A stretch of DNA of 64,000 nucleotides. It comes from Terriglobus sp. RCC_193. Lineage in GTDB: Bacteria > Acidobacteriota > Terriglobia > Terriglobales > Acidobacteriaceae. The notes under the pieces were generated by a model that was not told where the DNA came from, ran no database searches, and saw nothing but the letters and a program-made list of their open reading frames with translations. The position numbers were made by a program, and so were the translations under genes. The stretch is taken from positions 1,612,001 to 1,676,000 of the forward strand of contig NZ_JBFUPK010000001.1 of assembly GCF_041355105.1 (NCBI RefSeq), in the 5' to 3' direction. Below are positions 10,463 through 48,548 of the stretch, piece after piece (positions within the stretch are counted from its first letter, which is position 1; every line of letters begins with the position of its first letter).

Positions 10463-10500
10463 GTAGGCGCACGGCGCTCTACCTATAGGTGAAGACCTAT
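10463..10500 (-). promoter_or_regulatory. Overlapping hairpins after the cysteine leader ORF
   Basis: On the minus strand ATAGGT-CTTC-ACCTAT (10500-10485) forms a tetraloop hairpin that covers the leader ORF's stop codon. A second stem, GTAG(A)GCGC-CGT-GCGCCTAC (10482-10463), follows. The palindrome ACCTATAGGT (10481-10490) overlaps both, so alternative pairings are possible, as expected for translation-controlled folding. No T-run follows, so if this attenuates it may involve Rho or ribosome access. Confidence 0.45.
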
Positions 10501-10535
10501 CGGGAGCAACAACAAAGCTGCGACAGAGTACGCAT
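10497..10535 (-). CDS. Cysteine-run leader peptide MRTLSQLCCCSR
   Basis: ATG 10535 to TAG 10497 encodes 12 residues, MRTLSQLCCCSR, with codons TGT TGT TGC before the last two. There is no ribosome-binding site; the ATG lies 7 bases after a -10-like element, so the transcript should begin at or next to the start codon. The ORF lies 141 bases upstream of the first CHRD gene and its stop codon is inside a hairpin. The design matches a leader peptide that senses charged tRNA-Cys. It is too short for automatic gene calling. Confidence 0.6.
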   Translation of the reverse strand: MRTLSQLCCCSR

Positions 10536-10570
10536 GAGAGAAACGTTAACACATGCGTCACAGATGTCAA
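10535..10570 (-). promoter_or_regulatory. Sigma70-like promoter giving a leaderless leader ORF
   Basis: On the minus strand TTGACA (10570-10565) and TAACGT (10548-10543) are separated by 16 bases, and the leader ORF's ATG follows after 7 bases. The -35 is consensus; the -10 matches at three positions only. Confidence 0.55.
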
Positions 10571-10711
10571 GTCTACGGATTATCGCAAAGCCTCCTGAAG
10601 AGGCAAGGATTAAGTTTTTGTTGTTCTATTTCAGATCGTAACTGAAAGAAAAATAAAGCCTCAGCGAAGCGGTCATCCAATAGCAAACGTCTCTTTCAAG
10701 AAAACATCTAC

Positions 10712-10748
10712 TTGACGCCCCGCAAGCGGGTGTTTACTTTTAACCTTA
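10712..10748 (+). promoter_or_regulatory. Sigma70-like promoter giving a leaderless leader ORF
   Basis: TTGACG (10712-10717), a 17-base spacer and TACTTT (10735-10740) are followed after 7 bases by the leader ORF's ATG. The spacer holds a perfect dyad CCCGC-AA-GCGGG (10719-10730) that could be an operator. This promoter diverges from the one ending at 10570. Confidence 0.55.
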
Positions 10749-10786
10749 TGCACATTGCATCCAGACTGTGTTGTTGTTGCCGCTAA
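10748..10786 (+). CDS. Cysteine-run leader peptide MHIASRLCCCCR
   Basis: ATG 10748 to TAA 10786 encodes 12 residues, MHIASRLCCCCR, with four successive Cys codons (TGT TGT TGT TGC) just before the final CGC. No ribosome-binding site precedes it; the start codon is 7 bases after the -10 element, predicting leaderless translation. The TlpA-like gene starts 104 bases downstream. The similarity to the leader at 10497-10535 in length, ending and promoter spacing argues against chance. Its likely role is to sense cysteine supply. The intervening 104 bases hold only a weak stem (10813-10831). Confidence 0.62.
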   Translation: MHIASRLCCCCR

Positions 10787-10890
10787 CGCAGGCACCACAC
10801 AGTCGTTTGTGCAGCCCGGACAGAACGGGTTCGTCTTCCGACCAAATTTTCTGATCACACCCACAACCTGATTTGAACGGAGTCTTCGTC

Positions 10891-12204
10891 ATGAAGCTTT
10901 CTGGACGCGTACTCGCATCCTCCTTGGCTGCTGTGTCTCTTCTGCAGTTCACGCCTGCGCTATTTGCACAAACCTCATCCGCGAAACTGACAACAGGTGT
11001 ATGGCAAGGCGTGGCAAAGGTGCGTGATACCGAAATTCCCATTACCATCCGTATTTCGCGTAATGGATCTAAGTTAGAAGCAGCGTTTCTCAATGGCCCT
11101 GCGACCAATCCTGATATCTCTCCTGCCAGTTCAGTAACGCTCGATGGCAATCATCTCGTAGCGTCATTCGATTACTTCGCGCGCACGCTTGACGCTACTG
11201 TAGACGGTGATTCGCTGACAGGAACCTATGGCGCAACGCATCCGGGCAAGCGCCCCGCGCCTCCCACGCCATTCACCGCAAAGCGCGTCGCGAAACTGTC
11301 GGATCCAACTTCATCGCCGAATGCTCCTAACATCTCCGGCTCCTGGGAGATTGCCACGAAGAGCAACAAGGGTGAAGGCGCATGGGAATTACGAATTGAT
11401 CCGCCTACTGGGAAATCTCCTGTAATCAAAGCAGCCATTCAGCGTATTGACGGCGATACTGGCGGCCTATGGGGCACATGGAATGGAAACAGCTATACGC
11501 TGGGACATTTCACCGCAGCGGGTGGCGCAGCCTATTCCATAACGCCTCAGGCAGACGGAACGCTCATAGTGAAGAGCCTTCTTGGCGGAGTTCATGGCTC
11601 ATCGCCTGAATTCACCGCACATCGGCCAGACGAAGCGCGGAAGCTCAATCTACCCACCCCTACCGACACAACGCAACAAACCTCCATCAAAGACCCCAAT
11701 GCGCCACTCACCTTCAGCTTTCCTGATCTGAATGGCAAGGTGCTTTCTAATACCGATGCGCAGTTCCGTGGCAAAGTGGTCATCGTTGCGATAGGCGGCT
11801 CATGGTGCCCCAACTGCCACGACGAAGCTGGCCTTCTCGTGAGCCTGTATAAGCGCTTCCATTCCAAAGGGCTTGAGATCGTGAACCTTGACTTCGAACA
11901 GGGCGATCCGGAAACCGATACGTCTCGTCTGAAGGCCTTCGTCCAGCACTATGGCATCACCTATCCCGTGCTTCTTGCTGGAACAACCGATCAACTCAAC
12001 GAGAAAATCCCACAGGGTGTCAATCTTAACTGCTGGCCTACTTCGTTCTTCGTTGGCCGCGATGGTCTGGTGAAAGAAACCCATGCAGGCTTTGCAGGCC
12101 CCGGCAACACCGCCGGCCACATTGCACTCGAACACGAAGTTACAGCCCTGGTAGAGAAGCTGCTTGCACAACCTGCTCCCAGCCAAAGCGCAAAGCTGAA
12201 CTAA
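10891..12204 (+). CDS. Exported TlpA-like thioredoxin-fold protein, paralogue of the 5430-6809 product
   Basis: 437 residues from ATG 10891 (GGAG upstream) with a signal peptide ending near ALFAQ. The N-terminal 230 residues contain the same two beta-rich halves as the paralogue: LTTGVWQGVAKV, then ISGSWEIATKSN and IQRIDGDTGGLWGTW. The C-terminal thioredoxin domain has active site GSWCPNCH near residues 304-310 and a later VGRDGLVKETHAGFAGP. It probably exchanges thiols in the periplasm. It is transcribed away from the cytochrome/CHRD cluster, from a promoter with its own cysteine-run leader, and ends at a strong bidirectional hairpin. Confidence 0.85.
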   Translation: MKLSGRVLASSLAAVSLLQFTPALFAQTSSAKLTTGVWQGVAKVRDTEIPITIRISRNGSKLEAAFLNGPATNPDISPASSVTLDGNHLVASFDYFARTLDATVDGDSLTGTYGATHPGKRPAPPTPFTAKRVAKLSDPTSSPNAPNISGSWEIATKSNKGEGAWELRIDPPTGKSPVIKAAIQRIDGDTGGLWGTWNGNSYTLGHFTAAGGAAYSITPQADGTLIVKSLLGGVHGSSPEFTAHRPDEARKLNLPTPTDTTQQTSIKDPNAPLTFSFPDLNGKVLSNTDAQFRGKVVIVAIGGSWCPNCHDEAGLLVSLYKRFHSKGLEIVNLDFEQGDPETDTSRLKAFVQHYGITYPVLLAGTTDQLNEKIPQGVNLNCWPTSFFVGRDGLVKETHAGFAGPGNTAGHIALEHEVTALVEKLLAQPAPSQSAKLN

Positions 12205-17495: not shown

Positions 17496-20400
17496 TTAGA
17501 AGCTTAGTCGCAAAGCGAACTGCAGGACTCGTGGTGATCCAGCACCCGTGATCTTACCGAAGCTTGCCGTTCCAGCAGATACGGTCGCGTTTGGATTGTT
17601 CAGGTTTGCGCGGTTCAACGCGTTGAAAGCCTGCGCGTGGAATTGCAACCCCAAACGATCCGTCAGATGAAACGTCTTGGCCGCAGACGCATCCAGATTC
17701 AACGACCCCGGTCCACGCAGACTGTTACGTCCACTGTTGCCAAAGGTTCCCGTCGCTGCGGCCTGATAAGCAGCCGTATTGAAGTACTGCGTGATGCTGC
17801 TCACACCCGCTGGCCGGGCAGGATCGCCGACGCGATCGGCGTAGTCGCCACCGACTCCTGACAACGAACGGTCCGTTCCACTCAGCACGGTGAACGGAGT
17901 ACCCGTCGCTGCATTCAGAATCGTGTTCACTTGCCATCCGTTGATAATCTGGCCAGCCCAAGGAGCAACATGTACCTTCGGAATGTCATAGACCAGCGCC
18001 AGGTTGTAACGAACCGTTACATCGTAATCAGCAGGTCCGCGTGAACTGTTAAGGTCGAAAGGATTGGCTGGTCCGGCATTGCCTTCAATCGCGCTCGATG
18101 TGTTGTCGATGATCTTCGCCCACGTCAGATTCGTCAGCACATGCAGACCATTTGAAACACGTCGTGTCACATTCACTTGCAGGCCGTTGTAATCGGAGTA
18201 TTCATAGGAACTGGCGACTTCCATCGCGCCCACCCCCTGATAGATTCGGCGCGATTGTGTATTCGCCAGCGTGGCTCCCGGACCGTACACAGCAGGATTC
18301 AATTGCCGCGATCCCATCACATGTTGCACGTGGTTTCCAACATACGCAATCGATAGCGCAAGTGAATTTGTCAGCTGAGTTTCCACTGTGAAGTTACGAT
18401 CCTGGATAGTCGCCACCTTTGAGTTCGGGTCAAGCACACCGCCTGATACCGGCAACGTAAACACATACGATCCGAAGTTACTTAACGGAGTCTTCGCACG
18501 CGGGAACGGGCTGCTGCTGCCCCAGATGTTGTCCCATGCATTGGCAGGGTTCGGTGTGGTCACCCCAAAGCTGCGAGGCTGCGTCTGATTAGTTCGTTGG
18601 TACAGCAAACCTTCTGGGAAGCCATAGAAGAGGCCATAGGCTCCGCGGAAAATTAACTTCCCTTTTCCGCCCACGTTGTATGCAAAGCCCACGCGTGGTC
18701 CAAAGTCCTTCCAGTTCTTCCGAAAGATCGAATCCTGTACTCCCTTATCGCCGAGAAACAACAGTCCAAGTGGCGCATTGGGCGCAATGATCGACTGCGC
18801 ACCTGCCTGAAAACCTACCAATGCAGTGTTCAGATCGGTAGGAGGAAGCCACGGGTCCCAACGAAGCCCTGCGTTGATCGTCAGGTCACGATTAACTTTC
18901 CAATCATCTTGCACATACAGATCGGGCCGGTTCTCCCTCAGGTACATGGTTCGTCCATTGTCCTGCGAGAACGATGACTCATATCCCAGATAAAAATCGG
19001 CTACGGCGTTGCCACTGCTGCGGAATCCGGTTGGCAATGTTACTCCGCTGGGTGCCGCTGTCCGCGCACCACTGAATGCGTTGTCACCTGGAACATAGGA
19101 ATAGTCGTTTGCGTTGATGCGCGAACGTTCCCAGCCTCCACCAAAGTTAATGGTGTGCGAACCCACAATCTTTACAAACGTAGCCTTGTACTCAAACGTC
19201 GTTGCTGCCTGCTGCAACGTTCCGCCAGAAAAGATGTTGACGAAGCCGGAGATGTTGGCACGGATACCAGGGAAGAGTGCGAGCGGCGTACCTAATGGAA
19301 CCTGCTGTCCAAGGTCTTGCAGCGATTTCAACCCGGGAGCCTGCGGCACCTGGGTGCGTGCGAAGCGTCCTGCTGCAGCGGAAAATGTTCCCGTAAAACT
19401 CGGGCTGAAGACATGCGTGTCGCTAATGACCAGCGACTGATTTCGAAATGCGTTCGCCGCAAAAAATCCAGTCGGCGCGGTGAAGGACCGTTGGAAATTG
19501 TTCTGGTTATAAAAATAGCGACCGCTCAGATGGTTATTCGCCAAAAGCTGGTGATCCACCTTAACCGTGTACTGCGTGTTGCTGATGTTCTGATTCGGAC
19601 TCAGCGTGACACGACCGGTGGAATCAGGATTCAGGCCAGCGAGATAGTTTTTATATACGGCCTGCGAAAGAGCGCTAGCACCGGTGGTGATGATATTGCC
19701 AGCATACGGTTGGCCGGTCGTCGGGTTATAGAGTTGCGTGCCTGCGGATGTAAGCGCGCTGAAGTTACCATTCATCTGCGCGACAGTGGGAATAACAAAC
19801 GAAACGGGATTTACAGAAGCACGCTGCTCCTGATCTTCTGCGGCAAAGAAGAAGAACGTCTTGTCATGAATGATCGGGCCACCCACCGTTCCACCAAACT
19901 GGTTCAGCTTGAAGGGTGGCTTGATTGGACGCCCTGCGGAATCGCGTGCCGGAAAACGGTTATACGCATTCAACACAGTGTTGCGCAGATACTCATATGC
20001 CGTGCCGTGAATCTGATTGGTACCCGACCGTGTCGAGAGCTGCACCAACGCACCTGCACCGGGAAACTCCGCGCTATAGTTTGATGACTGAATCGTAAAT
20101 TCCTGGAGTGCGTCAGGATTGGGCAAGGTCGGAACAGAATCGAAAAAACGATTGTTATAGATGGCATTATCGAGCAGATAAGTGCTCTGCGTGGGACGCA
20201 AACCATTCACCGCCAGGCCAACATTGTCCTGCTGTCCTGCTTCCGTACCAACGCTGGTGAGCGTGGTTCCTGGCGTTAGCGTCGTCAACTGAAGGGCGTT
20301 GCGACCATTTAATGGCAACTCCGATATCTGTTTTGCATCAATCGTTGTCTGCACCGCAGAGTTCGCAGTCTGCAATTGAGCTGCTTCAGCCGTTACTTCA

Positions 20401-20753
20401 ACCGTCTGTGATGCTTCGCCGTTAAGTAAGGTGAACGGCGCATCGATTACCTGTCCCGTCAGCAATACGACGCCGGTACGTTGCTGTGTACGGAATCCTT
20501 CCTTGGTGATCTGCACAGAGTAGGAACCGATCGGCAGATCTGGAAAGACAAAGATACCTAACGAATTTGACTTCACCGAACGGGAAACACCTGTGCCTGT
20601 GTTCGTAACAACCACGCCCGCATCCGGGACTAACGCTCCAGTGCTATCCAGCACCGTGCCACGAAGAACACCAACCGCCTGCGCATACATGTGTGCAGCG
20701 GGAGCAAGTGAAAGAACAGCGAGAACAGACAAGGGAATACGACGTGTCATCAT
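17496..20753 (-). CDS. TonB-dependent receptor, Oar-like with carboxypeptidase-regulatory N-domain
   Basis: 1085 residues from ATG 20753, which has GGAGG five bases upstream. After a signal peptide (VLAVLSLAPAAHMYAQA) comes a carboxypeptidase-regulatory-like domain (GVLRGTVLDSTGALVPDAGV). It is followed by the plug (ELPLNGRNALQLTTLTPG, LLDNAIYNNRFFDS) and a long outer-membrane barrel that ends in the aromatic LQFALRLSF. Such receptors are abundant in Acidobacteria and import large or scarce substrates, mostly glycans. The gene lies between a truncated TIM-barrel gene and the GH2 gene, downstream of an SsuD/MFS operon, so the ligand may be a sulfonated or acidic glycan. That link is inferred. 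Confidence 0.9.
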   Translation of the reverse strand: MMTRRIPLSVLAVLSLAPAAHMYAQAVGVLRGTVLDSTGALVPDAGVVVTNTGTGVSRSVKSNSLGIFVFPDLPIGSYSVQITKEGFRTQQRTGVVLLTGQVIDAPFTLLNGEASQTVEVTAEAAQLQTANSAVQTTIDAKQISELPLNGRNALQLTTLTPGTTLTSVGTEAGQQDNVGLAVNGLRPTQSTYLLDNAIYNNRFFDSVPTLPNPDALQEFTIQSSNYSAEFPGAGALVQLSTRSGTNQIHGTAYEYLRNTVLNAYNRFPARDSAGRPIKPPFKLNQFGGTVGGPIIHDKTFFFFAAEDQEQRASVNPVSFVIPTVAQMNGNFSALTSAGTQLYNPTTGQPYAGNIITTGASALSQAVYKNYLAGLNPDSTGRVTLSPNQNISNTQYTVKVDHQLLANNHLSGRYFYNQNNFQRSFTAPTGFFAANAFRNQSLVISDTHVFSPSFTGTFSAAAGRFARTQVPQAPGLKSLQDLGQQVPLGTPLALFPGIRANISGFVNIFSGGTLQQAATTFEYKATFVKIVGSHTINFGGGWERSRINANDYSYVPGDNAFSGARTAAPSGVTLPTGFRSSGNAVADFYLGYESSFSQDNGRTMYLRENRPDLYVQDDWKVNRDLTINAGLRWDPWLPPTDLNTALVGFQAGAQSIIAPNAPLGLLFLGDKGVQDSIFRKNWKDFGPRVGFAYNVGGKGKLIFRGAYGLFYGFPEGLLYQRTNQTQPRSFGVTTPNPANAWDNIWGSSSPFPRAKTPLSNFGSYVFTLPVSGGVLDPNSKVATIQDRNFTVETQLTNSLALSIAYVGNHVQHVMGSRQLNPAVYGPGATLANTQSRRIYQGVGAMEVASSYEYSDYNGLQVNVTRRVSNGLHVLTNLTWAKIIDNTSSAIEGNAGPANPFDLNSSRGPADYDVTVRYNLALVYDIPKVHVAPWAGQIINGWQVNTILNAATGTPFTVLSGTDRSLSGVGGDYADRVGDPARPAGVSSITQYFNTAAYQAAATGTFGNSGRNSLRGPGSLNLDASAAKTFHLTDRLGLQFHAQAFNALNRANLNNPNATVSAGTASFGKITGAGSPRVLQFALRLSF

Positions 20754-20778
20754 TGGAACCTCCAATTGGTTCATAAGC

Positions 20779-20797
20779 CTGTCTTGCGTCAAGACAG
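20779..20797. promoter_or_regulatory. Hairpin in the 5' leader of the TonB receptor gene
   Basis: CTGTCTTG-CGT-CAAGACAG is a perfect 8-bp stem, 26 bases upstream of the receptor start codon. The 217-base leader (20754-20970) also has a run of TGTTG repeats near 20870-20880 but no clear promoter. The hairpin could stabilise the mRNA, or the dyad could bind a protein. Confidence 0.45.
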
Positions 20798-20970
20798 ATG
20801 TGCGAAGACGCCGTCAATGCGGCGCTCCTGCGATATCAGTTGTGTAGGAAGAGTGGAAAACTAGAGACAACAACAACAGCGATAGCGGCATAGAGCCGCC
20901 GCGCCATCGAGGCAGGCGCCGCAAAAATGTACGTATGGATTTTCGGAGAGCGAAAGAACAGAGTGCAGCA

Positions 20971-21165
20971 TCACGAGGCTACCGCCTTATACAAGCTTCG
21001 GTACACAGGCACATCCACCAATGAGCCCTCAATCTTCGCACCAGTAGGCCATGCATTCGTCTGTGCGCTAAAACGCAGACTCCGCTGAACCTGTATCCAG
21101 GCTGCAGAAGGAGCCATAGTCATTGCACCCAGTAGCGATATCATTTTGCGTCGAGAGAGTGTCAT
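20971..21165 (-). pseudogene. Truncated Tat-exported sugar isomerase/epimerase-like ORF
   Basis: 64 residues with a twin-arginine signal (LSRRKMISLLGAMTMAPSAA), then LRFSAQTNAWPTGAKIEGSL and a short unrelated tail ending YKAVAS. The AQTNAW segment matches the start of the mature TIM-barrel protein at 24728-25633 (YGAQTNAFAIQP), but the barrel itself is absent. The start overlaps the upstream MFS stop as ATGA, as for a functional operon gene. It is most likely an internally deleted copy; a functional secreted peptide is less likely. The truncated end faces the TonB receptor leader. Confidence 0.6.
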
Positions 21166-22412
21166 CGGGTCTCCTGTAGCTGGCGATATGCGGGTGAACC
21201 GAGTAAGAACAGTGCTGCCGCACCCATCATGGGCATAATGCCAATCAGAAAGAAGACCGGCGTGTACGAAACGTGATCGACCAGGTAACCGGTAAGCAGA
21301 GGAAACAGCAACCCACTCAGCCCTGCAGCCAGGCCGGTAAAGCCGGTCACACGACCGACCTCACTCTCCGGAAACAGATCGGTGATCGCTCCAAACATGT
21401 TTGCGGATAAAAAGTTGTCTGCCAACATCGACACACCAATCAACAAGTAGGCGAGCAGCAGCCCCTTGGCAAACGGCACAAACAGACTCACAATGCAGAG
21501 CAAAGCGCTAAGGTACATCGTGATCCTGCGCACGGAATAGACCCGTAGCCCGCGCTTCTCAAGCGCACCGGCACTCCACCCGCCGGCAACTCCGCCAATA
21601 TCTCCCAACACAAAAGGGATCCATGCCACATAGCCGATTCCACTCATCGAAACATGACGCTCATGGAACAGGTAGTTCGGAATCCAGTACCAATAGAACT
21701 GCATGACTGGCCCAATGAAGAAGCGGCACATCATGACGGCCCACACCGACCGCTGCGCAAACAACTCCCACACGCTGCGCTCCGGCTTCGTATCGCGGTG
21801 TTCTTCCTTCGCCGGGGGATTCCGATACAGCAACAACCACAACGGTACCCACAACAGTCCCAACGAAGCAGCCACCAGGAACGCCGAACGGTATCCATGA
21901 CGTTGCAGTAGCCACACAATGATCGGTGGTGCAATTGTCGAACCAATCATGCTGCCGCTATTGAATATTCCAATCGCGAGTGTTCGGTTCTCCTTGCGGA
22001 ACAGTTGAGTTAGCACCTTGATGCCACCAGAGTAATTGCCGCACTCCCCTGTGCCCATCCAGAGGCGCGCCAAACCAAGTTGAAATCCGCTCTTTGTAAA
22101 TGCCTGCGCGCTGGTCGCCCCAGACCACCACAGCACGGCACCAGCCAGCACAATGCGCGCACCAAACCGGTCCATCAGCGCACCCATCGGCAATTCGCCT
22201 GTCATCATGCCGAACTGAAACGCAGACACAATGCGGCCATACGCTTCGTTGCTCAGATGCAAGTTCTGTCGCACCACCGGCGCCAGAACCGATAGTGTCT
22301 GGCGGTCGACGAAGTTCACCACCGTAATCGCAAACAGCAGTGCAAGAATCAGCCAGCGTCTGCGCTCGCTATAGCCGTGTCTTTGTGGCACGGTGCCCAA
22401 CACTGCACTCAT
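21162..22412 (-). CDS. MFS transporter, ExuT/ACS (sugar-acid) type
   Basis: 416 residues with about 12 membrane segments. The first loop carries [18 protein letters not shown] and the second helix [28 protein letters not shown], which are typical of the anion:cation symporter group that includes hexuronate transporters. It starts with an ATGA overlap on the SsuD gene and ends with an ATGA overlap on the truncated isomerase ORF, so all are co-translated. Beside an alkanesulfonate monooxygenase and sugar-modifying enzymes, an acidic or sulfonated sugar is a reasonable substrate, though this is not proven. Confidence 0.85.
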
Positions 22413-23560
22413 CCGTTTCGAACCGGCCGGAACTCATTGCCGACAAAATCTGCTGGATGACGATCATGAATCGACGCAGCAGGATCGCTGTGATGAATAG
22501 GCAGCAGCGGGAACAGCAGTTCCTTCACGCGATACGCCTCTTCAAGATGCGGGTAGCCAGACAGAATGAAACTGTCGATGCCCAGGTCTGCGTATTCCAG
22601 CATGCGTTGCGCTACTGTCTCTGCGTCGCCCACAAGCGCAGTGCCTGCACCACTCCGAACCAGTCCAATACCTGACCAGAGATTCGGACTCACTTCAAGA
22701 TTCTCCGCGCTTCCCCGCACCAATTCCGCCATGCGACGCTGCCCTTCCGAGTCAAACTTTGCCAGACCTTGCCGCGCGCGCTCAACGACGTCCTTGTTGA
22801 CGTAACGGATGAGGTCGTTTGCATCGCGCCATGCAGCCTCGTTTGTCTCGCGCACAATCACATGTAGGCGAATGCCAAAGCGCAGCGTACGACCCTGCTT
22901 CGCAGCAGCTTCACGAACTCGCGCAATTTTCTCCGCTACAAGTGCTGGCGGTTCACCCCATGTCAAATACACATCTACCTGGCGTGCTGCAAGCTCGATA
23001 CCCGCATTGGAAGAGCCTCCAAAATATAGCGTCGGATGCGGTTGCTGCAGTGCCGGGTAATATACCCGCGCATCCTTCACATGCAGGTACTTGCCTTCAA
23101 AGCTCGATGTCTCACCTGCCATGATGCTGCGCCAGATTGAGAGGAATTCGTCTGTCACGGCATATCGTTCATCATGCGGCAGAAACACACCATCCGCAGC
23201 AGCTTCATGCGGATCACCACCGGTAACCACATTAATCAGCAGCCTCCCGCCGGAGAGGCGATCAAACGTGGAAGCCATGCGCGCCGCTACGGTTGGCGAC
23301 ATGATCCCGGGACGAATCGCAACCAGAAAGCGCAGCCGCTTCGTAGCTGGTAACAAAGCAGAAGCGATCACCCATGAGTCTTCGCACGAATTTCCTGTCG
23401 GTAGAAGAACAGAATGATAACCGAGGTTATCGACAGCTTGGGCAATCTGCGTGAGATACGCAAGGTCTGTGACACGTGAACCAACTTCGCTGCCAAGATA
23501 CCGGCCGTCACCAGTAGTGGGAATGAACCATGAGATCTCCACGTTCTTAGTCCCTTTCAT
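22409..23560 (-). CDS. ssuD: FMNH2-dependent alkanesulfonate monooxygenase (SsuD family)
   Basis: 383 residues from ATG 23560; a GTG at 23542 with AGGGA upstream is an alternative start. Similarity to SsuD extends along the whole length: [14 protein letters not shown] at the start, [55 protein letters not shown] and [18 protein letters not shown] near the end. SsuD releases sulfite from alkanesulfonates using reduced flavin, supplying sulfur when cysteine and sulfate are short. No SsuE flavin reductase and no SsuABC transporter are in the window. The genes around it handle sugars, so the substrate may be a sulfonated sugar such as sulfoquinovose rather than a simple alkanesulfonate. It overlaps the upstream oxidoreductase gene by 14 bases. 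Confidence 0.92.
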
Positions 23561-24731
23561 CAAGCTTTGATTGCGGAACACCCTGGCTCCAGTAAGACTT
23601 CAACGCGAGCAGTACCGGCACGGAAGCGGCAAGACCTGCATCCAATGGAGCATTCGGCACAGCCCCATTGGTAATTGCATCCAGAAAATTCCTGGTGTGC
23701 GAACGTTCCAGATTCTCCTTGGTATCGACACGCACTGGCGTTCCTTGCAACGGTGTATACACATACCCATCGCGAGCAACTTCGAGCAACCCTTCCGTTC
23801 CTTCAAACAAAACGGAAGGACGTTCATTTCGCAACGACAACACGGAACTCTCGAAGTTCAGATTCCAGTCCTTGTAACGGACAACCGCACTTACCGTGTC
23901 GGGGTTGTCACGGCCATCGTGCAGCTTATAAATCCCGCCAGTTGCAAATGCTGACTGCGGTGCTGCGTCATTCAGAAACCACTGCGCCACATCAACCCAA
24001 TGCGTCAGGATATCCGCAAGCAGACCGTTGCCGTAATCGTGGAAGTAACGCCACGAATCGTAACGCGCTGTCTGATACGGAACATGTGGCGCCGGCCCAA
24101 GGAAGCGTTCCCAGTCCAGACCAGCAGGCTTCGGCGCATCCACAATCTTGCGGCGCTGCCAGGCAAAGTCATGCCAAACGGCACGCACCAACACAATCTG
24201 GCCCAACTTTCCGCTGTCGATGTATTCCTGTTTCGCACGCAGATAGGTCGCACCACTACGCTGCTGTGTGCCGCATTGCAGAACGTGCTTGCTCTGCTGA
24301 GCCGCATCGACAAGTGTTTGCCGTTCGTGCCAGCGATGCAGCGTCGGCTTCTCCAGGTAGACATGCTTTCCTGCCCCCAGCGCAGCCTTCGCTACAGTGA
24401 CGTGAAGATGATCCGGTGTTGCAATCAAGACAGCATCCACGTCCTTGTGCGCCAGCAGATCTTCGTGCGCATTGAACGACGCAGGCTCCGGTAGTTCCGG
24501 TGCAAGTTGTGCAAGGACGCGCTTACGCGTTGCCTCATACGTGTCCGCGATGGCCACCAGTTGTGTGCGGCCATCCTGAAGGAAGCCCGCTCCCACGATG
24601 CGTCCCCGGCGTCCAACACCGATGATGCCCAGCCCAACACGGTTGTTCGCACCAATCACGTGCGCATACGACTTCGCGCTCATGGAGACTGCAGTTGCAG
24701 CCGTTACGCCAATAAATTCGCGGCGATTCAT
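23547..24731 (-). CDS. Tat-exported Gfo/Idh/MocA family oxidoreductase
   Basis: 394 residues beginning with a twin-arginine signal ([18 protein letters not shown]). The Rossmann fold follows ([16 protein letters not shown]), and the catalytic-loop motif [15 protein letters not shown] is present near residue 130, where EKP holds the conserved lysine. Exported members of this family oxidise or reduce sugars while keeping NAD(P) tightly bound. The gene overlaps the TIM-barrel gene upstream (ATGA) and the SsuD gene downstream. The order suggests that the exported TIM-barrel and oxidoreductase work on the same sugar, perhaps through a 3-keto sugar intermediate. Confidence 0.87.
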
Positions 24732-25633
24732 GCAGAGAACGCTCCCTTCAACGATTGCAGCGAAGTTTCCAGAACGGCGCGCCCTAGTTTCGTGCCATCT
24801 TCGCGTTCTTCTTCATTGATCACCCAGCCGTGCCAGTTCGCCTGCTTCAGAGCATTCGCAACCTGCCTCAGTGGGAACTTTCCTTGGCCGAGAGCGACCT
24901 GTTTGCCATCTACAAAATCGCGGAAGTGCAATCCCGTTAGTCGCGCCGCATGTTTCTGCACAAACGCTGGAAGATCTAAATTCGTGCGCGAGGCGTGGCC
25001 AATATCCATAAGGAAACTGACCTTCGCGGGATCAGTCTCCGCATAGAGCGTTTCCAACTCGAGCGCTCCATACTTCGCCTCCCACCAATGATTGTGATAC
25101 GCCAGCTTCAGACCCAGCGTGGAGGCAAACTCACCTGCTGTATTCAGCGCTTCTGCTTTTCGCTTTAACTCATCAGCTGTCGCTGCGGGAGCACCGCTGA
25201 AAATCAAGCGCTGCGCCCCGGTCTCAGCACCTTGGTGCGCAACTGTTTCGTAGAAAGCCTTAGGCGGTACGTTCGTCAGTGAATCGTATTCCGGCAAAAA
25301 GATGTGGATGCCTAGAAAGGTAAGTCCTGTCGTCTCGATCTGCTTTCGCGCCGACGGCAAATCCTTTGACTGACCACGGAGGTTAATGAAGCCTGTCTCA
25401 AATCCGTCGTATCCAAGACTGCGAATCTGCGTGAGGGCATCCACAAACGTCTCGAAACGCGCAGGCTGGATTGCAAACGCATTGGTCTGCGCACCGTAGA
25501 AGGTCCGCGTCGACGAAGACGCGGGATCCAGTGCACGTGCAATGCCTTGACCAAAAGTACGTTGCAGAGATAGTCCGGCAACACTCGCAAGAGCTGAGCC
25601 GATGACGTGTCTCCGTGTAAAGGAAGATGCCAT
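24728..25633 (-). CDS. Tat-exported sugar phosphate isomerase/epimerase-like TIM-barrel protein
   Basis: 301 residues from ATG 25633 (GAGG upstream). A Tat signal (FTRRHVIGSALASVAGLSL) is followed by an AP-endonuclease-type-2/xylose-isomerase-like barrel: LTQIRSLGYDGFETGFINLRG, LGLKLAYHNHWWEAKYG, VSFLMDIGHASRTNLDLPAF and GWVINEEEREDGTKLGRAV, with His, Asp and Glu positions fitting a metal site. It is the first gene of the operon and lies 100 bases after a cysteine-rich leader ORF. Exported relatives act on keto-sugars; the actual reaction is unknown. Confidence 0.85.
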   Translation of the reverse strand: MASSFTRRHVIGSALASVAGLSLQRTFGQGIARALDPASSSTRTFYGAQTNAFAIQPARFETFVDALTQIRSLGYDGFETGFINLRGQSKDLPSARKQIETTGLTFLGIHIFLPEYDSLTNVPPKAFYETVAHQGAETGAQRLIFSGAPAATADELKRKAEALNTAGEFASTLGLKLAYHNHWWEAKYGALELETLYAETDPAKVSFLMDIGHASRTNLDLPAFVQKHAARLTGLHFRDFVDGKQVALGQGKFPLRQVANALKQANWHGWVINEEEREDGTKLGRAVLETSLQSLKGAFSA

Positions 25634-25733
25634 GAAAACCTCACCAAAGAACAGAGCCTCGGGGAAGAGCTCACGCCTCGTGTCGATAAAATGTAGGGAT
25701 GAAAATTGGAAACTAAAAAATTGCGCGCAGGGG

Positions 25734-25802
25734 TTAGCGGCAACAACAGCTGCTGGGGGCAACTGGACAACACGGGAGGCCGATTTGTTCAACCGTGAGC
25801 AT
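25734..25802 (-). CDS. Cysteine-rich leader peptide of the SsuD operon (22 codons)
   Basis: ATG 25802 to TAA 25734 encodes 22 residues that begin MLTVEQIGLPCC and end SSCCCR. Five Cys codons are present, three in a row (TGT TGT TGC) directly before a final CGC and the stop. There is no ribosome-binding site; the ATG lies 6 bases after the -10 element, so translation should be leaderless. The ending and promoter geometry match the leaders at 10497-10535 and 10748-10786. It precedes a polycistron that includes SsuD, so pausing at Cys codons when cysteine is low is a plausible switch. The 100 bases between it and the first gene show no strong terminator. Confidence 0.65.
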   Translation of the reverse strand: MLTVEQIGLPCCPVAPSSCCCR

Positions 25803-25837
25803 GAACTCATGCTATGGAGCATTGCTCCAACTGTCAA
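25802..25837 (-). promoter_or_regulatory. Sigma70-like promoter of the SsuD operon
   Basis: On the minus strand TTGACA (25837-25832), a 17-base spacer and TAGCAT (25814-25809) stand 6 bases from the leader ORF's ATG. The spacer contains a dyad TGGAGC-AAT-GCTCCA (25815-25829) that could bind a repressor. The -35 begins 18 bases after the coaBC stop. Confidence 0.65.
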
Positions 25838-25854: not shown

Positions 25855-27066
25855 TCACGTTCGAGATTGACGAAGGCGAGTCCAATCCAGGATGCGGTCT
25901 GCCATCTCTCGTTTCGAACCACGCGGCAGCGGTAACTCAACATCCTGGGAGATGAGAATGCCTTCGTTTACATCAGCTTCAAACCCACTGTCTGCATAGG
26001 AAACATCGTTCGCGACAATCAGATCCGCGCCTTTTGCACGAAGCTTCCGCCTTCCTTCTTCAAGAACATTCTCTGTCTCAGCCGCAAACCCAATCACGAT
26101 TGTGCCTGCATGCCGCTGCTCTACAACCTGACGAAGAATATCTCGAGTTGGTAACAGTTCCAGCGTCAGTGAGTTTTTCTTCTTGAGTTTCTCCGGTGCA
26201 GGACATGCAACCCGGTAGTCCGAAACCGCAGCAGCCATGATAACCATCGATGCTTCGGTCAAACGTCCGAGCACAATGGACTCCATCTCTTCCGCTGTCG
26301 TCACTCGGATCGATTCACATCCCGGAGGTGTTGGCACAGCCAGGGACGCACCCACAAGTATGACTCTTGCACCACGTTCCAACGCGGCATGGGCCAGCGC
26401 TACTCCCATCTTTCCGCTGGAACGGTTTCCGATGAATCGAACCGGATCAATGAGTTCACGGGTTCCTCCAGCAGTAATGAGGATTGTTTCGCCAACCAGG
26501 TCCTTCGTTCGCCCTGACGTGGCGAAGACGCGATCCGCGATCGCGCCGGGTTCTGCGAGCCGCCCCGCACCCACCATTCCGCAAGCGAGTTCACCACTTT
26601 CTGGTGAAACAATTTGGACGCCGCGCTGTTGCAACGTCTTCAGATTTGCCTGCGTTGCCGGGTGCTCCCACATATGAAGGTTCATCGCAGGTGCGACGAT
26701 AATCGGGATCGTAGCGGCCAAAACGGTTGCGGATAAGAAGTCATCCGCAAACCCATGAGCCATCTTGGCGAGCATGTTTGCTGTAGCCGGAGCCACAACC
26801 AACACATCAGCATTCTGAGTTATCTGGATGTGCTCAATATCGAAATCTTCCCCGTCGGCTATAGAAGCTTCGCTGTGTGTGGTCTGCCACAGAGATGTCA
26901 TTACCTGCGAACCGCTCAGTGCCGCGAAGGTCAGTGGCGTGACGAACCGCTCCGCATTTGCAGTCATCACGACCTGGACTGTCGCTCCGCGACGCTGAAG
27001 TTCACGGAGAAGTTCAGCCGCTTTGTAAGCCGCAATTCCCCCACACACACCAAGAATAACCTTCAT
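25855..27066 (-). CDS. coaBC: Bifunctional CoaBC (phosphopantothenate-cysteine ligase / decarboxylase)
   Basis: 403 residues from ATG 27066, which overlaps the panC stop as ATGA. The N-terminal flavoprotein decarboxylase part has LGVCGGIAAYKAAELLREL and the PxMNxxMW motif in VAPAMNLHMWEHPA near residue 130. The C-terminal ligase part has ILITAGGTRELIDPVRFIGNRSSGKMG near residue 205. The enzyme joins cysteine to 4'-phosphopantothenate and decarboxylates the product on the way to coenzyme A. It completes a panB-panC-coaBC operon. Because it consumes cysteine, its position next to a cysteine-sensing leader is worth noting, although they have separate promoters. Confidence 0.95.
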   Translation of the reverse strand: MKVILGVCGGIAAYKAAELLRELQRRGATVQVVMTANAERFVTPLTFAALSGSQVMTSLWQTTHSEASIADGEDFDIEHIQITQNADVLVVAPATANMLAKMAHGFADDFLSATVLAATIPIIVAPAMNLHMWEHPATQANLKTLQQRGVQIVSPESGELACGMVGAGRLAEPGAIADRVFATSGRTKDLVGETILITAGGTRELIDPVRFIGNRSSGKMGVALAHAALERGARVILVGASLAVPTPPGCESIRVTTAEEMESIVLGRLTEASMVIMAAAVSDYRVACPAPEKLKKKNSLTLELLPTRDILRQVVEQRHAGTIVIGFAAETENVLEEGRRKLRAKGADLIVANDVSYADSGFEADVNEGILISQDVELPLPRGSKREMADRILDWTRLRQSRT

Positions 27067-27935
27067 GCGTTTGCTCCATCGATCCGCAACGTACAGTTGT
27101 CGATCAATCGCGTCGTGCCGATCCATGCTGCTACAGCAACGAGAGTTTCAGCAGGCAATGTATCTTCGTCGAGAGTTTCAAGCGTGTCTGGGTCGACTAA
27201 ATCTGCGTAGTCGATTTTCAATACATTCGAATGCATAAGCTCTTTGCTCAGAGTCTCACGTATTACCGATGTACGACGCTCCCCTTGCCTCACAATATCC
27301 ATCACGGCACGGAGTGACCGCGAGAGAGTCTCGGCTTCAATGCGTTCTGTTTCGCTGAGATAGCGATTTCTGGAACTCATCGCCAACTCGCTTGATTCAC
27401 GGACCGTTGGACACACTACCAGATTCAGATCAAAATTCAGATCGCGCACCATCTTGCGAAGCACCGCAACCTGCGCCGCATCCTTCTCTCCAAAGAAAGC
27501 ACAGCCTGGCTGCACAATGTTGAAAAGCTTCGCGACTACTGTGGCAACGCCACGGAAATGCCCCGGTCGAGATGCGCCATCCAACCGCGCGCCAATCACA
27601 GGAACATCCACAATGGTCTCCGTCCCCGGCGGATACATCTCCTCCGGGGAAGGCGCAAAGAGCAGATCAACGCCTTCCTGTTCCAACAACAGACAATCCT
27701 GCTGGAAGGTGCGTGGATAGCGTGCCAGATCTTCCGCAGGACCAAATTGCAACGGGTTGACGAAGATACTGACTACGGTGCGGTCACAGCTTTTCCGTGA
27801 GGCTCGAACCAATGAAAGATGCCCCTCGTGCAACGCGCCCATAGTAGGCACCAGGCCAATCGTCTGCTGTGCAGAACCACGCTGGTAAGCTTTGCAGGCG
27901 GCACGCATTGCCAGTGGGGATGAGATTATTTGCAT
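27063..27935 (-). CDS. panC: Pantoate-beta-alanine ligase
   Basis: 290 residues. Landmarks are GLVPTMGALHEGHLSLVRAS, the ATP-binding HIGH-like motif near residue 35; VVSIFVNPLQFGPAEDLARYPR; HFRGVATVVAKLFNIVQP; GEKDAAQVAVLR; and SSRNRYLS. The enzyme condenses pantoate with beta-alanine using ATP to make pantothenate. Its start lies inside the end of panB (10-base overlap) and its stop overlaps the coaBC start, so the three genes are tightly coupled. The length is normal for the family. Confidence 0.96.
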   Translation of the reverse strand: MQIISSPLAMRAACKAYQRGSAQQTIGLVPTMGALHEGHLSLVRASRKSCDRTVVSIFVNPLQFGPAEDLARYPRTFQQDCLLLEQEGVDLLFAPSPEEMYPPGTETIVDVPVIGARLDGASRPGHFRGVATVVAKLFNIVQPGCAFFGEKDAAQVAVLRKMVRDLNFDLNLVVCPTVRESSELAMSSRNRYLSETERIEAETLSRSLRAVMDIVRQGERRTSVIRETLSKELMHSNVLKIDYADLVDPDTLETLDEDTLPAETLVAVAAWIGTTRLIDNCTLRIDGANA

Positions 27936-28840
27936 ACGGATACTTCCCTTTGTTTCGTGGAAGCAACATCACGTTCTGCGACTATCTCAGCCTTAGGCAT
28001 GTGATAGCTCTCATGATCGTCGGGGAAGGTTTTTGCCATAACGGCATCACGAAAGTCCCTGATCCCCCGCTCCATTAACAACCGTCCATCTCCAAACGAA
28101 CGCACGAACTTCGGCTTCCGTGTGAACGACAGAGAGAACAAGTCATGGAACACCAGAATTTGGCCGTCACAATCAGGACCGGCTCCAATTCCGATTGTTG
28201 GAATGGAAAGAAAAGCTGTAATTTCCGCAGCAAGCTCCCTGGGTATGCCCTCAAGCACTATCGCAATTGCGCCAGCCTCTTCGAGCGCCAGCGCATCATC
28301 GCGCAGACGCATTGCATCCATCTCTGAAAGTCCTTGCACGCGATAGCCACCCATGCGATGGACTGATTGCGGAGTCAAGCCAATATGTCCTACTACTGGC
28401 ATTTCCGCCTGCGTTAACGCTTTCACGTGCGGTGCGTAAGCAATTCCACCTTCCAGTTTGACTGCTTCACTCCCGCACTCTTTGAAGAAGCGCAATCCGT
28501 TTCGCACTGCATCTTCAATTGAGACTTGATAACTGCCGTAAGGCATGTCCACCACCAGCAGCGCGCGCTTCGTTCCCCGCCGCACAGCACGTGCATGATG
28601 CAACATGTCGTCCATCGTGACGCGGAGCGTATTGTCGTATCCGAGAACAGCTGTGCCCAGGGAATCGCCCACAAGAAGCATGTCGATTCCTGCTTCATCC
28701 GCAAGTCGAGCGGTCGGATAGTCGTAAGCGGTAAGTGCTGTAAGGGGTGTGAAAGCGCGTTTGCTTTGCAGCAGCGTTTGCGGCGTGACTTTTGTCGCTG
28801 CCGCAGGACGCAGAGCGTCCTTGGTCTCTGTCTGACTCAT
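27926..28840 (-). CDS. panB: Ketopantoate hydroxymethyltransferase
   Basis: 304 residues from ATG 28840, preceded by GGAGTAGAG; an upstream in-frame ATG at 28891 lacks a good site. Motifs include TALTAYDYPTARLADEAGID, LLVGDSLGTAVLGYD, DMPYGSYQVS, VKLEGG, VVGHIGLTPQSVHRMGGYRVQG and FLSIPTIGIGAGPDCDGQILVFHD. The enzyme adds a hydroxymethyl group from methylenetetrahydrofolate to 2-oxoisovalerate, the first step to pantothenate. It is the first gene of the panB-panC-coaBC operon. The 172-base gap to the divergent panD gene holds nothing recognisable beyond promoter space. Confidence 0.96.
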   Translation of the reverse strand: MSQTETKDALRPAAATKVTPQTLLQSKRAFTPLTALTAYDYPTARLADEAGIDMLLVGDSLGTAVLGYDNTLRVTMDDMLHHARAVRRGTKRALLVVDMPYGSYQVSIEDAVRNGLRFFKECGSEAVKLEGGIAYAPHVKALTQAEMPVVGHIGLTPQSVHRMGGYRVQGLSEMDAMRLRDDALALEEAGAIAIVLEGIPRELAAEITAFLSIPTIGIGAGPDCDGQILVFHDLFSLSFTRKPKFVRSFGDGRLLMERGIRDFRDAVMAKTFPDDHESYHMPKAEIVAERDVASTKQREVSVCK

Positions 28841-29012
28841 CTCTACTCCAGTGCCACTCCGTCCCATGTGCGGATGCAGCCCGTACAGCAAGTATAGTCG
28901 CTGGCACCAGGAAGGCTCAAAAGCTCCCTTGCGGCTAGAGTCTTTTGCCTGCGCGCCTTACACTTAACCTTGGCAGGCGACCGCTCACCATGCGGCGACA
29001 AGCCGGAGGGTT

Positions 29013-29375
29013 ATGGAAGCAAGTGTGAAGATGATGAAGTCCAAGCTGCACCGTGCAACGGTGACACAATCGGATCTTCATTACGAAGGCAGCATCGGCA
29101 TCGATACGGATCTTCTGGGTCAATCAGGCATTCTGGTAAACGAAGCGGTACATGTGTGGAACGTAAACACCGGCCAACGTTGGGAAACATATGCCATCCC
29201 TCAGCCAGCAGGCACGGGGGAAATTCAGGTGAACGGTGCTGCCGCAAGGCTCGCACAGGTAGGCGATGTCATCATCATTGCAGCATTCTCATGGATGACA
29301 GAAAGTGCTGCCAGGGAACACACTCCTCGTGTCGTTCTTTTGGATGAGAGCAACAAGCCTCTCCCTGGCGCATAA
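29013..29375 (+). CDS. panD: Aspartate 1-decarboxylase (pyruvoyl enzyme precursor)
   Basis: 120 residues. The self-cleavage site is in SDLHYEGSIGIDTD, where the chain breaks between Gly and Ser to form the pyruvoyl group; WNVNTGQRWETYAI and VNGAAARLAQVGDVIIIA are further family motifs. The enzyme makes beta-alanine for pantothenate synthesis. It diverges from panB, so all four pantothenate/CoA genes sit together. The start may be ATG 29013 (GGAGGG close upstream) or ATG 29031, which aligns better with the family's MLKSKLHR beginning. Confidence 0.94.
   Translation: MEASVKMMKSKLHRATVTQSDLHYEGSIGIDTDLLGQSGILVNEAVHVWNVNTGQRWETYAIPQPAGTGEIQVNGAAARLAQVGDVIIIAAFSWMTESAAREHTPRVVLLDESNKPLPGA

Positions 29376-48473: not shown

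Positions 48474-48548
<75 letters not shown>

Follow-up and report, generated by a model that had tools for sequence, protein, structure and literature searches.

A putative cysteine-responsive leader peptide ahead of an SsuD operon, and Cys-run leaders of like design, in Terriglobus and related acidobacteria

The SsuD operon and the short reading frames in the window

The window, a stretch of 64,000 nucleotides from Terriglobus sp. RCC_193, carries on its minus strand an operon built around a sulfonate-using enzyme. Its first gene, for a TIM-barrel protein (PF01261, AP_endonuc_2), occupies 24728..25631, with the start placed at ATG 25631 from comparison with the corresponding gene of G315, a genome from another genus. 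This is followed by a GFO_IDH_MocA oxidoreductase (23547..24731, identified with Pfam), SsuD, the FMNH2-dependent alkanesulfonate monooxygenase (22409..23581), and an MFS transporter (MFS_1, 21162..22412, identified with Pfam and NCBIfam). An outer-membrane beta-barrel protein (OMP; PF25183, OMP_b-brl_4) follows the MFS gene at 17496..20792, also on the minus strand. SsuD passes the equivalog cut-off of the NCBIfam model TIGR03565 (594.4 bits, cut-off 518.2), and the solved chains nearest to it are alkanesulfonate monooxygenases.

Directly upstream of the operon lies a 22-codon ORF, MLTVEQIGLPCCPVAPSSCCCR, as the preliminary description had claimed; it is on the minus strand at 25802..25734 and has a TAA stop. 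A first pair of Cys codons is found at codons 11-12 (TGT TGT, 25767..25772), and a terminal run at codons 19-21 (TGT TGT TGC, 25740..25748), after which come only CGC and the stop codon. The ORF had been assigned the whole range 25734-25837; this is correct for 25734-25802, while 25803-25837 is its promoter. That promoter is sigma-70-like, TTGACA-17-TAGCAT, with the -35 element at 25832..25837 (TTGACC in G315) and the -10 element at 25809..25814. Since TAGCAT is 6 bases ahead of the ATG, the RNA is expected to start at or beside this codon, and the transcript is predicted to be leaderless. The gene next upstream has flavoprotein and DFP domains and is presumably CoaBC; it ends at 25855, which places the leader promoter in the intergenic space behind it. 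Past this gene (25855-29375), panC-like and panB-like ORFs and, on the opposite strand, a panD-like ORF can be recognized by eye, and the sulfur operon is thus adjoined by what looks like a pantothenate/CoA cluster. In an Rfam scan of the window no family reached its gathering score in the SsuD leader; the only hit at such a score anywhere in the window is a tRNA (48477-48548).

A likeness between this leader and two others about 15 kb away had also been proposed, and it holds. Both are of the predicted leaderless CCC type, and in each the -10 element is separated from the ATG by 7 bases. One, MRTLSQLCCCSR, lies on the minus strand (10535..10497) ahead of a gene with a CHRD domain, the other, MHIASRLCCCCR, on the plus strand (10748..10786) ahead of a TlpA-like (AhpC-TSA) gene at 10873-12204. 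The two leaders are divergent and stand back to back, with both promoters in between (10497-10786). The SsuD operon itself has a second Cys-run leader, ending in CRYRCCCCL and a stop codon, at 20974..20861 on the minus strand ahead of the OMP gene, where no good leaderless promoter was seen in the sequence. Another frame at 20974-20861 resembles a signal peptide by eye.

Cys-run leaders in the same genome and in relatives

Further leaders were found in the same genome with gapless and short-gap patterns; they come from among the matches listed (part of the 113 for the short-gap pattern), and the set given here is incomplete. For example, VTIPVQTCCCCRCS precedes a second TlpA-like gene, with the promoter TTGACC-18-TAGAAT-7-GTG. 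The cysD operon of this genome, whose CysD scores 445.7 bits (cut-off 396.6), is preceded by MRACCQCRNCCPAHPVAVCCRVR; downstream are CysN-like and TauE-like ORFs (by eye) and a second PF01507 protein, CysH-like. A sulfatase-OMP-rotamase-FGE operon is preceded by VSAISKRIPPCCCCR, for which no good leaderless promoter was found; FGE is the sulfatase maturation enzyme. This sulfatase leader and the OMP leader of the window, both with poor promoters, count against the cysteine-responsive reading given below.

SsuD is rare among relatives. It is found in 3 of 150 genomes of the family (E<=1e-90) and in 6 of 399 of the class (E<=1e-120). In G315 the genes, identified by position and by eye, run TIM-oxidoreductase-SsuD (81%)-MFS-OMP. 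The leader MTTVETICVPCDASAPRRLCCCL is found there ahead of the TIM gene (TTGACC-18-TAGAGT-6-ATG), and a leader ending in VVRTCCCCRQTL, the counterpart of the window OMP leader, ahead of the OMP gene (TTGCAG-17-TAAAGT-6-ATG). Between the window and G315 the DNA of the first leader is identical at 48 of 72 aligned columns (67%), the promoter region at 21 of 45 and the first 150 bases of the first gene at 57 of 155; in the stretch after the leader identity is 36 of 118, which is the level of shuffled sequence. Two transposase-like ORFs (insertion-sequence type, by eye) lie directly ahead of the G315 leader and SsuD operon (L117:2513-4219), an arrangement that hints at joint movement of the two.

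Genome G072 has the same arrangement of genes. Its OMP gene is preceded by an ORF ending in AVRLCSCCCCL, also a counterpart of the window OMP leader, with a fair promoter; its TIM gene has a doubtful Cys ORF, VNTPFHSDFCALGPAGPDLLTCC, which lies off the predicted start. In G006 SsuD occurs in another setting, and a Cys-run ORF ending in DGCCCSTTPVEFVLL precedes the SsuD gene; no recognizable promoter was found for it. No Cys leader with a promoter score of at least 6.5 was detected ahead of SsuD in G400, G406 and G217. Not all SsuD genes, then, have such a leader, and these cases count against the cysteine-responsive reading. Clear SsuD Cys leaders occur only in the TIM-oxidoreductase-SsuD-MFS-OMP arrangement, that is, in this Terriglobus, in G315 and partly in G072. 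When a gapless pattern, TGYTGYTGYCGNTRA, was run against 100 genomes of the family and 30 loci were taken, one per genome, none had a Cys leader with a leaderless promoter; for this reason the comparison was moved to orthologous genes.

For cysD, a looser test finds a short upstream ORF containing at least three Cys at all 11 same-genus loci, and only 3 of the 11 pass a strict one (3 Cys in 5, score 6). PF01507 gave no hit in 2 of the 13 genomes of the genus. In a search across the phylum, which did not take in a second cysD of G008, clusters of Cys precede cysD at 10 of 11 loci in the family, compared with 4 of 19 outside it, where the other 15 have no such ORF; these counts are for Cys alone, and other residues form no control set. 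At 5 of the 10 Cys-cluster loci of the family the promoter scores at least 8. Of the four loci outside the family with a Cys-cluster ORF, L250 and L258 both belong to family f59; in L246 and L271 the ORFs are weak. The Cys-rich short ORFs of L250 and L258 have a common tail, CxCTRTxxVPxxSVLP. Promoter spacing was surveyed in 18 cysD leaders from 21 rows (L139 and L141 are near-copies and L263 is the same locus as L140). A -10-like hexamer was found in 15 of these, and 12 of the 15 start 9-12 bases after it (range 6-12), so these leaders can be regarded as near-leaderless; this spacing and the strict-test count weigh against the cysteine-responsive reading.

Among 14 loci with relatives of the sulfatase, counterparts are found in this genome and in G031, and L127 is a possible third (score 7.2). 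Only low-scoring Cys ORFs occur in L124, L131 and L132, and no Cys ORF was seen in the remaining 8.

The TlpA-like protein was compared as well; of 150 genomes in the family, 18 encode it (E<=1e-30). A test for a leaderless Cys cluster (score of at least 7) is passed by 35 of 80 named TlpA-like loci. Among the 41 closest (L165-L204 and L241, a group chosen after all 80 had been inspected, with L241 joined because its leader is present), 30 pass, compared with 0 of 215 other ORFs of the same loci. The residue clustered in leaderless short ORFs of these 41 loci is Cys in 30 cases; the next is Arg, with 6. Of the 11 loci that fail, 4 have Cys-bearing leaders missed by the filter (L171, L186, L191, L193) and L190 has a promoter score of 6.5; no Cys leader was seen in L165, L166, L196, L199, L200 and L204. 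Leaders of the closer relatives include MHTASRLCCCCR, MYTLSIFCCRCCRS and MVSAPTHRCCCRPSACR, and they are present in Granulicella, Edaphobacter and Terriglobus albidus; that of Bryocella scores 6.5. Six more distant TlpA-like loci have a related form of leader, e.g., one beginning MFLVRCCECSCCPAGDASGL, with scores from 6.0 to 8.4. In these acidobacterial loci (L205, L207, L210, L218, L219 and L220) the Cys-rich leader reads M(N/F)V(I/V/F)RCCxCSCCPAGDxSGL, with variants, and TTGACA or TTGACT is found ahead of it in 4 of the 6. The TlpA-like protein (10873-12204 in the window; L278) is a frequent partner of leaders in the Acidobacteriaceae, and this pairing hints at a role in the sulfur or thiol economy of the cell.

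How the leaders might act

These observations are best accommodated if the 22-codon ORF encodes a cysteine-responsive leader peptide controlling the TIM barrel-oxidoreductase-SsuD-MFS operon, as one member of a set of Cys-run leaders in this genome that also precede cysD, sulfatase, OMP and TlpA-like genes. On the sequence evidence we regard this as likely. Short ORFs with runs of Cys codons stand ahead of sulfur operons (SsuD, cysD, sulfatase/FGE), and for the SsuD leader the promoter geometry predicts that transcription begins on the ATG or close by. In all 35 pooled leaders the -10 element is 6-9 bases from the start, 30 of them having been admitted by a score that permits only 4-9. Because relatives carry a like design ahead of their own sulfur genes, stalled protein synthesis probably serves the cell as a gauge of cysteine. 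The earlier suggestion that the Cys codons sense cysteine shortage on behalf of sulfur genes fits the comparative tests on the cysD, sulfatase/FGE, TlpA-like and G315 SsuD leaders. To our knowledge no sulfur role has been assigned to the CHRD and TlpA-like genes, a point against this reading.

In the proposed mechanism, RNA synthesis would begin on the ATG or next to it, after which a ribosome would load at the 5' end and trail RNA polymerase. With ample Cys-tRNA the ribosome would complete the leader and depart, and transcription would end ahead of the genes, either because Rho acts on the C-rich, G-poor RNA or because an intrinsic hairpin forms. With Cys-tRNA scarce, the ribosome would stall close to the stop codon, on the run of Cys codons; this would hinder termination, and the genes would be transcribed. 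We infer from sequence comparison that the ribosome stalls, that a shortage of cysteine induces the genes and which agent terminates; relief of termination by the stalled ribosome is the probable link between them. One property of some leaders sits uneasily with a cysteine-responsive mechanism of this kind. Several extend up to about 15 codons past the Cys run, and with so long a tail a stalled ribosome would shield less of the region that follows.

Transcription attenuation relieved by a stalled ribosome is favored because of the base skew after the leaders, the hairpins, the scant effect on start sites and the presence of a rho gene. In the 60 bases after the leader, C-G skew is 0.30 (n=34), while 81 upstream regions taken as controls give 0.00 (p=3e-11, which should be taken as indicative, p-values being too small here because the compared loci are related). 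The count covers 34 of 35 pooled leaders; in one the stretch is too short. At cysD leaders the skew is 0.36 and is positive in 18 of 18. For the window leaders the values are 0.33 (SsuD), 0.25 (OMP), 0.16 (CHRD) and 0.11 (TlpA). The untranslated stretch after the SsuD leader (25632..25733, minus strand), whose first 60 bases are G-poor, is a candidate region for Rho loading, and the same genome encodes Rho (720.5 bits, cut-off 509.45), so that C-rich, G-poor RNA and the factor that might act on it occur together. It is quite possible that Rho is the terminating agent, although we would put the chance somewhat below even. Perhaps Rho is the commoner agent, with intrinsic hairpins close behind, and the agent may vary among members of the set.

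Attenuation by intrinsic terminators, in which hairpins that follow the leader or reach into it would terminate the transcript except when the Cys codons hold a stalled ribosome, is a possible but less than probable account. Over the whole region from leader to gene, 8 of 35 pooled leaders have a terminator score of at least 9, compared with 1.35 expected from mononucleotide shuffles. The loci are L177, L187, L188, L189, L192, L194 and the SsuD operons of the window (11.5) and of G315 (10.0), and in both SsuD operons the hairpin is directly ahead of the first gene; in the window this is CTTCCCCGAGG..CTTTGGTGAGG followed by TTTTCAT, at 25632..25667 on the minus strand. L187-L189 are close relatives, and the 8 therefore represent fewer independent cases. 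The other 27 of the 35 regions have no hairpin at this score, and in the first 100 bases after the leader a terminator-like hairpin is as scarce as in controls (1 of 35 and 1 of 81, respectively). A second hairpin in the window, at 25715..25744 (minus strand), is a possible proximal terminator: Cys/Arg codons form its 5' arm, T6 follows, and a single fold gives -11.5 kcal/mol for a 41-base piece. Against this, the proximal hairpin was not seen in G315, and a simple terminator scan found none. An antiterminator was seen neither in single folds nor in a consensus fold of six cysD leaders, which gave no convincing switch.

Control of translation, in which the Cys-codon region would pair with the first gene's ribosome-binding site until a stalled ribosome frees that site, appears unlikely for these leaders. 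A review describes, in the portion available, leaderless ORFs of M. smegmatis with contiguous Cys codons that regulate downstream translation (PMC9031893), and in the window the site ahead of the TIM gene is mostly paired in the fold (0.28 unpaired). Start-site masking by the Cys region was nevertheless not seen in the folding model: when this region was blocked in silico, the unpaired fraction of the site shifted only from 0.459 to 0.485 (26 of the 35 transcripts, p=0.12), and it fell in both SsuD operons. The spacing between the stop codon of the leader and the point where the protein match begins also ranges widely, from 27 to 287 bases.

Small Cys-rich peptides can bind metals, and the peptide itself might be the sensor or product, either metal-binding or redox-sensing; the TlpA-like thiol oxidoreductases among the downstream genes would suit such a role. 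We consider this very improbable. The spacing of Cys varies (CCC, CRRC, CRC, CCQCRNCC), the peptides diverge widely outside the Cys run, and the annotated targets include genes for sulfur acquisition. Codon use is also informative. In the 35 pooled leaders TGT:TGC is 100:49 and in the cysD leaders 80:23, compared with 196:653 in the long ORFs of the 41 TlpA-like loci (spurious ORFs included), and this bias to TGT suggests that the codons matter. That the ORF arose by chance within a promoter region can be set aside almost entirely, for although Cys-run short ORFs arise randomly in GC-rich DNA and the gapless pattern gave a leaderless promoter at 0 of 30 loci, the window has 3 leaderless CCC ORFs with a promoter score of at least 8 (in a scoring scheme of our own) compared with a mean of 0.033 and a maximum of 1 in 60 dinucleotide shuffles, the leader is conserved in another genus, and the TlpA-like loci gave 30 of 41 against 0 of 215.

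Relation to known cysteine leaders

Leaders with Cys codons are already a known kind in Actinobacteria and Rhodobacterales, as far as the accessible parts of the literature describe them. In mycobacteria, polycysteine short ORFs that are leaderless were the subject of the work of Canestrari et al. 2020 (Mol Microbiol 114:93), as relayed in the available sections of PMC13236596, PMC9031893 and PMC9094748. By these accounts, the acidobacterial leaders resemble them in that the start is predicted to be leaderless, the Cys codons are contiguous, sulfur genes lie downstream and a response to cysteine supply is proposed. They differ in phylum, in the addition of SsuD, sulfatase/FGE, outer-membrane and TlpA-like genes as targets, and in the lack of any in silico sign of start-site masking.

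Candidate cys leader peptides were described earlier (2005) in Mycobacterium, Propionibacterium and Bifidobacterium, and the authors suggest Rho-dependent termination (PMC1262725). From the portion of that paper available, those leaders likewise have Cys runs near the stop codon, and they are followed by polyY stretches with no general terminator, as the acidobacterial leaders are followed by a C-rich, G-poor stretch. The actinobacterial leaders precede cys and cbs operons, whereas the present set includes organosulfur scavenging, and some of its members have terminator-like hairpins. In the uORFC-8-2 motif of Rhodobacterales a short upstream ORF carries Cys codons in tandem, and attenuation by stalling was proposed for it; by the accessible text the motif lies ahead of cysS and comprises two stems plus an intrinsic terminator (PMC8632094). 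Hairpins are in the minority here and the gene is a different one, since the operon begins not with cysS but with the gene for the TIM-barrel protein.

In E. coli tnaC a ribosome is held near the stop codon and is proposed to block Rho just downstream. A ribosome held in such a position is also what is proposed here; in tnaC the signal is bound tryptophan, while the Cys leaders would stall for want of charged tRNA. The response of tnaC to bound tryptophan is described in the available part of PMC10941005, and tnaC is named as a model in that of PMC1262725.

Among the open-access papers listed in our searches, no title or abstract opening reports a Cys-codon leader in acidobacteria. The accessible text of PMC4833913 does not mention cysteine, and in that of a 2010 survey (PMC2965389), which remarks that hardly any attenuator predicted for Acidobacteria had a known function, cysteine occurs only in the references. 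What looks new is the phylum, the association with SsuD, sulfatase and outer-membrane genes and the presence of two leaders in one operon. The leaders suggest that the mycobacterial cysteine-codon leader may have a counterpart in a distant phylum. A broader view can be put forward tentatively, at slightly less than an even chance. The Acidobacteria (at least the Acidobacteriaceae; a few more distant acidobacterial genomes have the related form M(N/F)V(I/V/F)RCCxCSCCPAGD...) would possess a sulfur-starvation regulon that works without a dedicated transcription factor. Leaderless polycysteine leaders would stand ahead of genes for sulfate assimilation, sulfonate use, sulfatases and outer-membrane uptake; the ribosome and tRNA-Cys would sense and termination would switch. 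Such a system would have an origin independent of the mycobacterial one and would travel with acquired organosulfur operons. Using nothing but sequence, the leaders delineate a candidate sulfur regulon, and they flag TlpA-like and CHRD proteins and several outer-membrane proteins as probable members of the sulfur/cysteine economy.

Leaders can also occur in tandem. Elsewhere in the same genome MVIRSFAACTCCCR, with the promoter TTGCAA-17-GATAAT-6-ATG, lies ahead of an OMP gene, and a second leader, VHPGSANPCCCCR, follows it by 125 bases ahead of the same gene (L275:170-214 and about 301-342; G000:C2:492169-492341). The 125 bases separate the two Cys runs, and the second leader has a GTG start, with no promoter seen for it.
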